Source of the DNA: Meiothermus ruber DSM 1279 | Lineage (GTDB): Bacteria > Deinococcota > Deinococci > Deinococcales > Thermaceae | Direction: 5' to 3' | DNA length: 64,000 bases | Assembly: GCF_000024425.1 (NCBI RefSeq) | Contig: NC_013946.1 | Location: 1,178,001-1,242,000 of the forward strand | Shown here: piece by piece, positions 45,164 through 49,214 of the stretch | Numbering within the stretch: the stretch's first letter is position 1 | Layout of the letters: the number at the start of each line of letters is the position of its first letter | The notes under the pieces: model-generated | Told to the model about the DNA's origin: nothing | The model's input: only the letters and a program-made list of their open reading frames with translations | Databases searched by the model: none | Position numbers and translations under genes: made by a program

Positions 45164-46927
45164 ATGAGCCAAGCCATCACCGAACTTCCAACCTGGGATC
45201 TGGACGCCTTGTTTCCGGGCTTCGAATCTGAAAAGTTCAGGTCTACCTGGAACCAGGTGGCCGGCCAGTTGCAGGATTTACAGGAGTTCATCGAAAGGCA
45301 CCGCATAGGCCGGGACGATGCCGCCACCGACCGCGCCACCTTCGAGGCCCTGCTGGACAAGCTGAACACCTTCGGCGATACCCTGGGGCCTCTCTTTGCC
45401 TATGTGCTGATGCGGGTGGACACCGATAGCGCCGACGCGGAGGCCCAGGCCAAGCTTTCCGAGCTCGAGCTTCTCCATCTAGAGTTCCAGAAACTGCGCC
45501 CCCGCCTGCAACGCTGGCTGGCTGGCCTCGAGGCCGAAGCGGTGGGCGCCGGCGATTACCGGATTCTCATCGAGGAAGCCAAAGTGCTGGCCCAGCACCT
45601 GATGTCGGAAGCAGAAGAGGTGCTGGCCGCCGAGCTTTCGCTCTCGGGGGGGCGGGCCTGGGTCAAGCTGCACGGCAACCTGACCAGCCAGATTACGGCG
45701 GTGTTGAATGGCGAGGAGCAGCCCATCACGGCGGTGCGCAACCTGGCCATGCACCCCGACGAGGCGGTGCGCAAAGCCGCCTACGAAGCCGAGCTAAAGG
45801 CCTGGAAAGCCAACGAAGTGGCCCTGGCAGCAGCCCTGAACGGCTACAAGGGCGAGGTCTCAACCCTCAACCGCAAGCGCGGCTGGGAAGACGACCTGGC
45901 CCCGGCCCTGTTTGAAAACCGCATTGGCCGCAAGACCCTCGAGGCCCTGCAACAGGCCATGGTGGAGAGCCTGCCCCACTGGCGGCGTTACTTTGCGGCC
46001 AAAGCCAGGGCCCTGGGCAAGGAGCGGCTGGACTGGTGGGATCTGTTCGCCCCCATCGTGCGGCCCGGCCAGACCCCCAAAAAGTGGAGCTGGGAAGAGG
46101 GCCGGCGCTTTATTGTGGAGCACCTGTCGGGCTTCTCGCAGGCCGCTGCCGATCTGGCCGAGCGGGCCTATGCCGAAGGCTGGATGGACGCTCCGCCCCG
46201 CAAGGGCAAGGTGGGCGGGGCCTACTGCACCCCGGTGGGGCAGGGGGCCTCACGCATCCTGCTCAACCACGAGAATAGCTTTGAGTCTATTTCCACCCTG
46301 GCCCACGAGCTGGGCCACGCCTACCACAACTACTGCTTGCGCGAGGTGCCCTATCTGTTGCGCCAGGAGCCCATGACCCTGGCCGAGACGGCCTCCATCA
46401 TGAACGAGACCGTAATCGGGGAGGCCGCGCTTAGGGTGCTGCCGCCCGCCGACCAACTAGGGGTGCTCGAGGGCGGTTTGCAAAGTGCGGCCCAGGTGAT
46501 CGTGGACATTCACTCGCGCTTCCTGTTCGAACAGGCGGTGTTTGCCCGGCGGCGGGCGCGGGAGCTATCGGCCGAGGAGTTTTGTGGCTTGATGCTCGAG
46601 GCCCAGCAGGCCACCTATGGCGAGGCCCTGGCTACCTACCATCCCTACATGTGGGCGGTAAAGGGCCACTACTACGGCTCCAACTTCTATAACTTTCCCT
46701 ATGCCTTTGGGCTTTTGTTTGGGCTGGCCCTCTACCAGCGCTACCGGCAGGAAGGCCCGGGGTTTGTGGCCCGCTACGAGGAGCTGCTGGCCTCGGTGGG
46801 CAGGTACCCCGCCGAGCAACTGGCGGCCCGCTTTGGCTTCGATCTGGAGTCGGTGGCCTTTTGGCGGGAGGGGATGGCCGTGCTGCTGGCCCGCATCGAG
46901 CGTTTCGAGGCGTTGCTAAACCAATGA
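45164..46927 (+). CDS. pepF: Oligoendopeptidase F-like M3 metallopeptidase
   Basis: A 587-residue zinc peptidase. HELGH (H381, E382, H385) is the M3 zinc motif and the downstream ETASIMNE carries the third ligand. The N-terminal helical region and C-terminal half fit PepF. It cuts oligopeptides of about 7-17 residues in the cytoplasm. TATACT (45151-45156) lies 7 bases before the ATG. Confidence 0.95.
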   Translation: MSQAITELPTWDLDALFPGFESEKFRSTWNQVAGQLQDLQEFIERHRIGRDDAATDRATFEALLDKLNTFGDTLGPLFAYVLMRVDTDSADAEAQAKLSELELLHLEFQKLRPRLQRWLAGLEAEAVGAGDYRILIEEAKVLAQHLMSEAEEVLAAELSLSGGRAWVKLHGNLTSQITAVLNGEEQPITAVRNLAMHPDEAVRKAAYEAELKAWKANEVALAAALNGYKGEVSTLNRKRGWEDDLAPALFENRIGRKTLEALQQAMVESLPHWRRYFAAKARALGKERLDWWDLFAPIVRPGQTPKKWSWEEGRRFIVEHLSGFSQAAADLAERAYAEGWMDAPPRKGKVGGAYCTPVGQGASRILLNHENSFESISTLAHELGHAYHNYCLREVPYLLRQEPMTLAETASIMNETVIGEAALRVLPPADQLGVLEGGLQSAAQVIVDIHSRFLFEQAVFARRRARELSAEEFCGLMLEAQQATYGEALATYHPYMWAVKGHYYGSNFYNFPYAFGLLFGLALYQRYRQEGPGFVARYEELLASVGRYPAEQLAARFGFDLESVAFWREGMAVLLARIERFEALLNQ

Positions 46928-46962
46928 TGGAAAACAAAATATAGCAAAATGTAAAACTTATA

Positions 46963-47003
46963 TTGACAAAATATAAAACCTTGGTTTATATTTAGAACCA
47001 AGG
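46963..47003 (+). promoter_or_regulatory. Promoter and overlapping palindromes of the 47013 operon
   Basis: TTGACA (46963-46968), 17-18 base spacer, TTATAT/TATATT (46986-46992). One palindrome, AAATATAAAACC-tt-GGTTTATATTT (46969-46993, one extra A), covers the spacer and -10. A second, CCTTGGTT (46979-46986) with AACCAAGG (46996-47003), surrounds the -10 and reaches the ribosome-binding site. The 30 bases upstream are unusually AT-rich, with repeats of AAAATATA and AAAATGTA. A repressor or activator site is likely. Confidence 0.7.
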
Positions 47004-47012
47004 AGGGCGGTT

Positions 47013-47207
47013 ATGTTTGGAAGCTTCAATCCAGATGAACTCGCAGTGGTCATCGCCGACAAAATCAAGGGCTATCACCGGGAGGCCGAACTGGAGGGAC
47101 AGTTGCCCAAACACGCCCTTCGCCGCCGCATGGCCCGGCTGCTGCGGGCCTGGGCCGAGGCCCTCGAGCCTGCCCAGGGTTCAAAAGGCCGCCTGCGTGA
47201 AGCCTGA
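47013..47207 (+). CDS. Small helical protein of unknown function (operon gene 1)
   Basis: A 64-residue basic, helical protein (MFGSFNPDELAVVIADKIKG, RRRMARLLRAWAEALEP) that I do not recognise. AAGGAGG precedes the ATG, and a strong promoter with two palindromes lies directly upstream, so it is very likely expressed. It is the first of five same-strand genes with spacers of 33 bases or less. It could be the small regulator or adaptor of the operon. Confidence 0.7.
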   Translation: MFGSFNPDELAVVIADKIKGYHREAELEGQLPKHALRRRMARLLRAWAEALEPAQGSKGRLREA

Positions 47208-47240
47208 ATCAAGCCGCAAAACTTTCCCGTGGAGGTTCCC

Positions 47241-47993
47241 ATGACCGAGCAAGCCCGCATCCAGGCCCTGCTAGAAGCAGGCAAAATTACCCAACAAGAA
47301 GCCGATCTGCTGCTTTCGGCCCTCGAGGAGGGCGAGGCGGCGGCCCAGCAAGCCCAGGCGGTGATAGGCGAGCAGTATGCCTCCTCAGGGGCCGCAGGCT
47401 GGCAGCCCGAGGGCCTGCGCTGGGTGCGGCTCAAGCTCACCGCCGGCCAGCTCGAGGCCCGGCTCGACCCAGCCATCGAGCTGCCGGTGCTGGAGGGCCC
47501 GGCTGAGGTGCGAAGGGTGGGGGCTGACCTTGAGATTGTGCCCGAGACGATGAACGCGGGCTTTCTGAACGGCCTGCTGGGCCGCATGGGCAGGCTCGAG
47601 CTGCGCCTTCCGCCGGGCTGGGGCCTGGAGGTGGAAGGTAAGGCGGCCCAGGTGGAGGCCCGGGGGATCGATTTTCTAAAGGGCCGGGTGGCTGTGGGCA
47701 ACGTCGAACTGGAGGCGGTAAAGGGCCTCGACCTCGAGGTCACCGCCGGCAACATCGAGGGTTCCTTGCTGCTGCAGGAAGGTACGCACCAGCTGCGGGT
47801 CTCGATGGGCAACGCCGAGCTAAACCTACTACCCGGCAGCAGCGTGCGGCTTTCGGCCAGCGTGAGCCTGGGGAACCAGGAGATCAGGGGCCTCGAGCGC
47901 AACCCCAATGGGGGTGATCGGCAGATCGGCGAGGGCCGGGCCCGCCTCGAGGTCTCGGTGCGTATGGGCAATCTGGAGATAAAGGCAAGGTAA
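47241..47993 (+). CDS. YvlB/LiaX-like protein with DUF4097-type beta domain (operon gene 2)
   Basis: A 250-residue protein. The first 30 residues hold the helical pair ALLEAGKITQQEADLLLSAL, as in the N-terminus of YvlB/LiaX proteins. The rest is a repetitive beta solenoid (LELRLPPGWGLEVEGKAAQV, VGNVELEAVKGLDLEVTAGN, ending VRMGNLEIKA), the DUF4097 pattern in which each turn carries V-x-x-G-N-x-x-x. LiaX senses cell-envelope antibiotics in enterococci. No signal peptide is seen. GGAGG precedes the ATG. Confidence 0.75.
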   Translation: MTEQARIQALLEAGKITQQEADLLLSALEEGEAAAQQAQAVIGEQYASSGAAGWQPEGLRWVRLKLTAGQLEARLDPAIELPVLEGPAEVRRVGADLEIVPETMNAGFLNGLLGRMGRLELRLPPGWGLEVEGKAAQVEARGIDFLKGRVAVGNVELEAVKGLDLEVTAGNIEGSLLLQEGTHQLRVSMGNAELNLLPGSSVRLSASVSLGNQEIRGLERNPNGGDRQIGEGRARLEVSVRMGNLEIKAR

Positions 47994-48014
47994 GCCCCTG
48001 GAGAGGAGCCGCAT

Positions 48015-48446
48015 ATGCAAGACAAGAAACGCATAATGGACATGGTCAAGGAAGGCAGAATTACCGCCGAGGAGGCCATTCGCCTGCTGGAAGCGATGGA
48101 CTCGAGCGCGTCCAAAACCGCGTCCTCGGGCTACGCTGCGGTGGTGGCCCCCCCACCCCCCAAAGGCCTCGCCAAGATGATCCGTATCGTGGTGGACGGC
48201 GAAGACGTCAAGGTTAAGGTCAACATTCCGGCGGCCCTTGCCAAGTTTGCCGCCAACTTCATCCCCCCCGAGGCCAAGCAGCAGCTAAGCGCCCAGGGCA
48301 TTGATATTGCCGGCATCCTGGACATGCTCAAAGGTGAGCTGCCCGAAGGGCGCTTGCTGGATGTGGAAATCAGCGATGTGGGCAAGGTGGGCGACGGAGA
48401 AGTCAGGATGACCGGCCCCATGCGGGTCTTGATTGAGGTGGTCTGA
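48015..48446 (+). CDS. SHOCT-like/YvlB N-domain protein (operon gene 3)
   Basis: A 143-residue protein. Residues 7-28 repeat the same helical pair, DMVKEGRITAEEAIRLLEAM. A linker with a run of prolines (VAPPPPKG) leads to a second domain (LAKMIRIVVDGEDVKVKVNI ... RLLDVEISDVGKVGDGEVRM) resembling the C-terminal part of YvlB-like and SHOCT-associated proteins. GAGAGGAG precedes the ATG. Function unknown; by context it works with the neighbouring DUF4097 protein. Confidence 0.7.
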   Translation: MQDKKRIMDMVKEGRITAEEAIRLLEAMDSSASKTASSGYAAVVAPPPPKGLAKMIRIVVDGEDVKVKVNIPAALAKFAANFIPPEAKQQLSAQGIDIAGILDMLKGELPEGRLLDVEISDVGKVGDGEVRMTGPMRVLIEVV

Positions 48447-48464
48447 AGCACCAAGAGGCATACA

Positions 48465-48800
48465 ATGACCGCAGTGTCTAAGGTAACCATTTCACCCGAC
48501 TGGCGCTCGAGGTTGCACCTCATCCGCCCGCGGTTTGTGTATCTATGGGTGCGGCTGTGGGCGCTTCCCATCCCCATTGTCCTGTTCGCGCCGCTGGTGA
48601 TGCTCGAGTTTTTCCTGATGCTAGGCACCCGTATCCTGCGCAAAGCCAAAGCCCCAGACCCCCAGATCGTGGCCTTGCGCGGCCAGATCTGGGAACTGCG
48701 CAGGATGCCGCCCTTTGTTCTGCTGGAGGCGGAGGTGCGACCCAGGGCCTTTGATGCCAGAGCCCCTCAGCAGGTCTATGTCAAGATGGGCCTTTGGTAA
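48465..48800 (+). CDS. Small membrane protein (operon gene 4)
   Basis: A 111-residue protein with a basic start, one or two hydrophobic segments (VRLWALPIPIVLFAPLVMLE, EFFLMLGTRIL, about 28-56) and a basic cytoplasmic tail. I do not recognise it. Its position between two proteins that share the helical motif makes it a candidate membrane anchor or sensor of the operon. It starts 18 bases after gene 3. Confidence 0.68.
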   Translation: MTAVSKVTISPDWRSRLHLIRPRFVYLWVRLWALPIPIVLFAPLVMLEFFLMLGTRILRKAKAPDPQIVALRGQIWELRRMPPFVLLEAEVRPRAFDARAPQQVYVKMGLW

Positions 48801-48818
48801 ATCCCACCTGGAGTCCTC

Positions 48819-49214
48819 ATGAGACCTTTCCCCATGCCTACCCAGTGCCCGGTAGAAGGCTGCCACGGGCACCTGCACGTGACCGGGCTGGTCTGCCCGG
48901 TGTGTCGCACCGAGATTCGGGGCGAGTTCCAGCCCAACGAGTTTGCCCTGCTGCCGCCCGAGCACCTCGAGTTTTTGCGCCTGTACATCAAGGTGCGGGG
49001 CAACCTCAAGGAAGTGGAACGCATTCTGGGGCTTTCCTACCCCACTATCCGGGCCCGCTTCGAGGCCCTGCTCAGGGTGCTGGGCTACGAGTACCAGGAA
49101 GTACCCGAGGGCCCCAGCCCCCAGGAGAAGGAGGCCATCCTTGATGCTCTGGAAAAAGGCCAGATCAGCGCCGCCGAGGCGGCTGAGCAGTTAAGGGCTC
49201 TAAAAAGGCGCTAA
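48819..49214 (+). CDS. DUF2089-type zinc-ribbon/HTH protein (operon gene 5)
   Basis: A 131-residue protein. A zinc ribbon (CPVEGCHG and CPVCRTEI) is followed by an HTH-like core (LEFLRLYIKVRGNLKEVERI, LSYPTIRARFEALLRVLGYE), the DUF2089 pattern of a putative transcription regulator. The C-terminus is a third copy of the helical pair, DALEKGQISAAEAAEQLRAL. It is likely the operon's regulator. Start: ATG at 48819 (TGGAG upstream) or ATG at 48834. Its end overlaps the convergent enoyl-CoA hydratase by 4 bases. Confidence 0.78.
   Translation: MRPFPMPTQCPVEGCHGHLHVTGLVCPVCRTEIRGEFQPNEFALLPPEHLEFLRLYIKVRGNLKEVERILGLSYPTIRARFEALLRVLGYEYQEVPEGPSPQEKEAILDALEKGQISAAEAAEQLRALKRR

Follow-up and report, generated by a model that had tools for sequence, protein, structure and literature searches.

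A five-gene DUF2089-Toastrack operon of Meiothermus ruber and a candidate operator array at its promoter

The closest described systems to the locus analysed here are the DUF2089-Toastrack gene neighbourhoods reported by Ravi et al. (2024, mSystems; PMC11237479). As far as the main text of that paper goes, DUF2089 is split there into zinc-ribbon, helix-turn-helix (HTH) and SHOCT-like parts; a four-gene DUF2089-Toastrack context is described across diverse bacteria, for which a Lia-like role in membrane-stress signalling is proposed by computer prediction; and SHOCT-like domains are interpreted as membrane anchors. The same text describes HAAS-PadR systems, in which, again in a Toastrack context, an HTH regulator has a small helical domain as its partner. 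It contains neither an operator nor the small-protein family P1 described below, nor the words Deinococcus or Thermus, and a literature search yielded no published paper on DUF2089 operators and no described DUF2089 target. For the locus considered here, the system is known, while the regulatory layer and the associated P1 family seem to be new.

Genes and domains of the operon

Within the window (the whole 64,000-nucleotide stretch of M. ruber DSM 1279 DNA that was analysed), five consecutive genes are read from the + strand with intergenic gaps of 18–33 bp, a tight run which bears out the single operon proposed in the first-pass annotation. On one side they are flanked by a Peptidase_M3 gene and on the other by an opposite-strand gene resembling, by eye, enoyl-CoA hydratase. 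The genes and their domains, with the basis of each assignment, are:

47013–47207, + strand: P1, 64-aa basic protein with an amphipathic C-terminal helix (ORF)
47241–47993, + strand: P2, SHOCT-like domain and Toastrack (DUF4097) beta-solenoid protein (ORF, profile matches of orthologues)
47253–47336, + strand: SHOCT-like segment of P2, residues 5–32 (PF22746 in orthologues, profile comparison)
48015–48446, + strand: P3, SHOCT-like domain and uncharacterised C-terminal domain (ORF, Pfam, structure model)
48021–48104, + strand: SHOCT-like domain of P3, residues 3–30 (PF22746, profile comparison, model)
48465–48800, + strand: P4, 111-aa protein with one hydrophobic stretch and a conserved RPR...PL..E pattern (ORF, orthologues)
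48819–49214, + strand: P5, DUF2089 regulator with zinc ribbon, HTH and SHOCT-like parts (ORF, Pfam)
48846–48947, + strand: zinc ribbon of P5, PF22747 (Pfam)
48951–49091, + strand: HTH domain of P5, PF09862, with weak fold resemblance to sigma region 4/LuxR-type HTH (Pfam, model, foldseek)
49125–49208, + strand: SHOCT-like domain of P5, residues 103–130 (PF22746, profile comparison, model)

The helical motif previously noticed in three of these proteins corresponds to an already curated domain, Pfam SHOCT-like_DUF2089-C (PF22746). This profile matches P3 of the window at 43.4 bits (E 2e-11), P5 at 25.5 bits, just below the 27-bit cut-off, and P2 at 16.6 bits; together with its matches to orthologues (14 of 14 for P3, 14 of 16 for P5 and 10 of 14 for P2), this upholds the claim of one motif in three proteins. 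The HMM-HMM comparison that had been suggested as a check likewise revealed significant similarity, the three pairings of SHOCT-like segments scoring 98.1, 95.4 and 97.0% probability, whereas none of six control pairings exceeded 2.1%. Two confident helices are modelled for the domain in P5 (residues 101–112 and 118–130) and in P3 (residues 2–12 and 18–35), where the SHOCT part alone is confident (mean pLDDT of the P3 model, 52); the second domain of P3 is predicted, with low confidence, to be of mixed alpha/beta structure. Elsewhere in the home genome, a single contig of 3,097,457 bp, the domain gives one weak match (E 0.6).

P2 is, to judge from its profile matches, a SHOCT-Toastrack protein. 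Its assignment as DUF4097-like holds by way of its orthologues, of which 6 of 14 match PF13349 (best E 5e-16), the P2 of the window itself falling below the threshold for a direct Pfam match; the LiaG profile matches it weakly (1.6e-5). A sequence search of the PDB with P2, P3 and P5 returned nothing significant, the best match of P2 (E 0.15) being 4qrk, a structure cited for Toastrack. P5 was correctly recognised at the outset as a zinc/HTH protein of DUF2089 type, since it firmly matches both PF09862 (DUF2089 HTH; 75.1 bits, E 3e-21) and PF22747 (zinc ribbon; 44.2 bits, E 2e-11); foldseek searches with the P5 model gave weak HTH matches only, sigma4/LuxR-like, with E-values above 0.1. The alignment of P5 orthologues (L084, L103, L090, L092, L094 and L100) shows that family f3 has lost some of the zinc-ribbon cysteines and family f5 all of them, so that not every member can depend on metal binding. 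The small basic protein seen in first place is P1, with a net charge of +3. A small membrane protein had been claimed for the fourth place, and the single hydrophobic stretch of P4 (KD19 2.28) makes a membrane location plausible. No support was found within Deinococcota for P4 being a duplicate of the second domain of P3 (hhalign 0.5%).

P2 resembles LiaX/YvlB/LiaG of Firmicutes in having an N-terminal SHOCT-like domain and DUF4097, and the N-terminus of P3 (residues 1–35) weakly matches that of LiaX (NCBIfam NF038025), at 23.8 bits where the cut-off is 350. The regulator here, however, is DUF2089 and not a two-component pair, and among the five operon proteins there is no LiaF/LiaI-type protein, PspA or PspC, nor a LiaFSR or two-component gene. 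From the HAAS-PadR systems (PMC11237479) the locus differs in its helical domain and in its HTH family, and in that the helical domain is also present within the regulator. It shares with the published DUF2089-Toastrack context a Toastrack protein, recognised through orthologues, in the same operon as a protein of zinc-ribbon, HTH and SHOCT-like parts, a neighbourhood conserved in other lineages, and the proposed Lia-like signalling. Because that neighbourhood has already been published (PMC11237479), and the motif is PF22746, the operon is not the new system that had initially been thought possible.

DUF2089 was matched in 105 of 111 Deinococcota genomes, and 60 of the surrounding loci were inspected. 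P2, P3 and P5 occur together in all five sampled families, and P1 and P4 in most of them, in the order P1-P2-P3-P4-P5 or P2-P3-P5; by sequence search 34 of 61 loci contain P1 and 32 contain P4, with divergent P4 proteins in further families. A survey of the neighbourhood in Thermales had been called for, and conservation turns out to extend far beyond them, to these five families and, for the P5-P3 pair, to Bacilli. At locus L044 a transporter-like gene with many hydrophobic segments, MFS-like by eye, is inserted between P4 and P5 (6449–7720, - strand), and similar P4-P5 gaps are seen in genomes G017, G020 and G023.

The promoter and its repeated half-sites

The elements recognised upstream of P1 are:

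46927–46933, + strand: third (distal) half-site ATGGAAA, exactly 22 bp above the next (sequence pattern; a copy here in 13 of 44 operator-bearing loci)
46949–46955, + strand: half-site ATGTAAA, phylum-wide (conservation)
46963–46968, + strand: -35 box TTGACA (promoter match, conserved)
46971–46977, + strand: half-site ATATAAA in the -35/-10 spacer, 22 bp past the preceding half-site (conservation)
46985–46991, - strand: inverted half-site (TTTATAT on the + strand) overlapping the -10 box, forming inverted repeat I1 (46969–46993) with 46969–46977
46987–46992, + strand: -10 box TATATT (promoter match)
46979–47003, no strand: second inverted repeat CCTTGGTT/AACCAAGG, over the -10 box, start site and ribosome-binding site (own genus only)

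The promoter, TTGACA-18-TATATT, agrees with the consensus in 11 of 12 letters and does indeed lie within two overlapping inverted repeats (arms 46969–46977/46985–46993 and 46979–46986/46996–47003). The second palindrome (CCTTGGTT) was considered as the core operator and rejected, being kept in the own genus alone; the phylum-wide part is the direct repeat, in which half-sites ATRKAAA recur every 22 bp, one of them between -35 and -10, to give the array consensus ATRKAAA-N7-TTGACA-N3-TRTAAA. The operator pattern occurs three times within 46927–46991, against a chance expectation of 0.01 in the 64-kb window, and in the home genome (3.1 Mb) it is found at this locus alone, even when up to three mismatches are allowed. 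If an operator is counted as present when 10 or more of the 14 half-site letters agree, it precedes 44 of 55 main operon loci, from all five sampled families, and is seen at none of 70 other TTGAC[AT] sites taken from these loci; among the 11 loci without a call, several lie on contigs that end before the promoter, with a match on another contig (G007, G016 and G018). This strictly spaced, phylum-wide DNA signal before the operon seems to be a new element, and a candidate switch for the operon's own regulator.

Five genomes that are 95–100% complete and have no DUF2089 above the cut-off (G021, G031, G046, G057 and G110) also have no operator with an intact TTGACA and both half-sites, a co-absence which supports the link to DUF2089 without proving it. 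Three genomes have the operator and lack DUF2089, namely G005, where the contig stops within the operon, and G058 and G086, which are 83–84% complete; three others (G107, G055 and G095) have DUF2089 and no operator match, which counts against binding of P5 to the array. Where a shortened DUF2089 gene stands alone, apart from the operon (G032, L070), there is no such operator, and a DUF2089 paralogue type found in relatives (L083, L095, L097, L099, L101 and L102) was discarded as a possible bearer of the operator, being without it.

Extra strong copies of the operator are present in G020, G023, G040 (two), G041 and G052, each immediately 5' of a P1-family gene, the P1-like proteins of G020, G023 and G052 having been recognised by eye from translations; since the 'strong' class was chosen after the matches had been seen, this association is a lead and not a test. 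Other matches, mostly of weaker agreement, lie upstream of unrelated genes and are probably due to chance. In G023 (L107) and G020 (L109) the second operator heads a two-gene cassette, consisting of a P1-family gene and a Toastrack-like protein with repeated TSNG motifs. In G040 (L112 and L113), G041 (L111) and G052 (L117) orphan P1-family genes stand directly behind their own operator copy, and no P1 was detected in the main operon of these three genomes. Two further recurrent elements were seen: one resembling AAGGAAGTATGTTTTTTACAGCGTATAAA at three mismatches in the own genus (G002, G003, G006, G007, G009, G012, G016 and others), unlinked to DUF2089, and one resembling ATGTCAACGCTCTCTTGCCAAGGTGTAAA in genus g5 (G024, G025, G026, G031, G067 and G070), kept in the DUF2089-less G031 too.

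DUF2089 promoters in Bacilli and DUF2089 loci of other bacteria

In Bacilli, DUF2089 is followed by a P3 homologue in 80 of 80 fetched loci, and a third gene of 80–125 aa occupies the same slot in 73 of the 80; profile comparison gives some support for likeness of its product to Bacilli P3 (71%, P 3.6e-5) and little for likeness to P4 (12%, P 0.0024). The DUF2089 promoters of these bacteria are rich in TTAA pairs at a spacing of 21 bp (110, against 9.6 expected from shuffles), with further peaks at 9, 12, 31, 43 and 52 bp. A pair at 21–22 bp is found in 94% of 78 DUF2089 promoters and in 8.5% of 118 AT-rich control promoters; part of this excess is due to the higher AT content (83% versus 73%) and TTAA content (6.4 versus 2.5 each) of the former, which do not explain the sharp 21-bp peak as compared with 10–11 and 16–17 bp. 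The spacing pattern persists in 31 dereplicated promoters, in which kinship is reduced but not removed. Exact four-element TTAA arrays were found twice in ten Bacilli genomes, both times at the DUF2089 promoter; matches with one mismatch were no commoner than those to a reversed control, so only the exact arrays are informative. The letters of the Bacilli and Deinococcota arrays differ and the spacing of two helical turns is common to both; in Bacilli the array is placed mainly above the -35 box.

Among further Bacillota, 27 of 101 sampled genomes contain DUF2089, and at most of these loci a SHOCT-bearing protein, often of 330–415 aa, is adjacent. More than 500 confirmed DUF2089 stretches in bacterial genomes are among the matches listed. 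On a plasmid of Legionella adelaidensis (L129, 3986–5060) the gene behind a DUF2089-family gene encodes a protein whose N-terminus is SHOCT-like and which has several hydrophobic stretches, so the pair also occurs in Gammaproteobacteria.

A proposed mechanism and its alternatives

On balance, we judge it probable from these sequence comparisons that this operon belongs to the published DUF2089-Toastrack (Lia/PSP-like) group of membrane-associated signalling operons and controls itself, with P5 repressing through the array and its SHOCT partners gating that repression. P5 would bind the ATRKAAA half-sites, 22 bp apart, at its own promoter and, because a 22-bp repeat amounts to two helical turns, these half-sites would lie on one face of the DNA. 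Since one half-site falls between -35 and -10 and the inverted one overlaps the -10 box, bound P5 would be expected to block RNA polymerase, and the promoter geometry in Deinococcota thus suggests autorepression. P2 and P3, which carry the two-helix domain found at the C-terminus of P5, would probably act on P5 near the membrane, by holding, assembling or titrating it there, perhaps through SHOCT-SHOCT contact among the three proteins; a change in the envelope may then shift P5 off the promoter and turn the operon up. Envelope stress as the signal is taken by analogy from the published family context (PMC11237479).

The earlier suggestion that the DUF2089 protein acts on its own palindromic promoter is favoured by the conservation and specificity of the array and by the co-absence. 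The proposed mechanism as a whole is argued for by the domains and the SHOCT-like region common to three proteins, the published neighbourhood, the conserved gene order, the distribution of the operator (44/55 versus 0/70), its uniqueness in the home genome, the co-absence, the bare promoter of the lone DUF2089 gene, the extra copies at P1 genes, the P5-P3 pair and the spacing in Bacilli, and the HTH shape; it is argued against by the small number of genomes (five) in the co-absence, the DUF2089 genomes with no operator match, the differing letters in the two phyla, the position of the Bacilli array, the foldseek E-values above 0.1, the lost cysteines and the published reading of SHOCT-like domains as anchors. 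The array might instead be bound by another regulator, or constitute an intrinsically bent or UP-type promoter element, with P5 acting elsewhere: DNA curvature can also arise from AT-rich elements set two turns apart, and some DUF2089 genomes have no operator match. The half-site is, however, a specific sequence and not an A-tract, the array is confined to this locus within the home genome and absent jointly with DUF2089 from five genomes, and arrays at 21–22 bp recur at the DUF2089 promoters of another phylum; a different ligand or mere bending appears unlikely. P5 could also activate the operon, in a positive feedback. Lia-type operons are activated under stress, and most of the TTAA elements in Bacilli, as read from the sequences, lie above the -35 box, in a position that would suit an activator. 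Against this stand the Deinococcota half-sites between -35 and -10 and, inverted, over the -10 box, and a promoter so near to consensus (11/12) that it has no obvious need of help, and activation is considered somewhat improbable.

Even if P5 represses its operon through the array, the SHOCT-like domains might merely anchor P2, P3 and P5 each at the membrane without mutual contact, the role as anchors being that proposed in PMC11237479. The confinement of the domain in the home genome to three neighbours and one weak match suits a private contact but is not decisive, and simple anchoring is a serious contender, to be given a little less than even weight. It is also conceivable, though we lean against it, that the operon has a role unconnected with envelope stress, given that PspA, PspC, LiaF and a two-component gene are missing among its five proteins; on the other side, Lia/PSP contexts are where Toastrack and SHOCT-like domains belong (PMC11237479), P1 has an amphipathic helix and P4 a hydrophobic stretch.

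The DUF2089 regulators form a widespread family. Because ATRKAAA-N7-TTGACA-N3-TRTAAA occurs just once in the home genome, it offers a direct and cheap way to ask what the regulator recognises, and also a route to how a signal at the membrane may reach DNA by way of Toastrack/SHOCT proteins when no two-component system takes part. It is tempting to suggest, as a tentative generalisation, that DUF2089 proteins may be an uncharacterised class of one-component autoregulators which assemble on one DNA face along two-turn arrays, a principle that would be common to Deinococcota and Bacillota, with the SHOCT-like domains of Toastrack and P3 proteins serving as the on/off handle and the same Deinococcota operator driving the small amphipathic P1 family.
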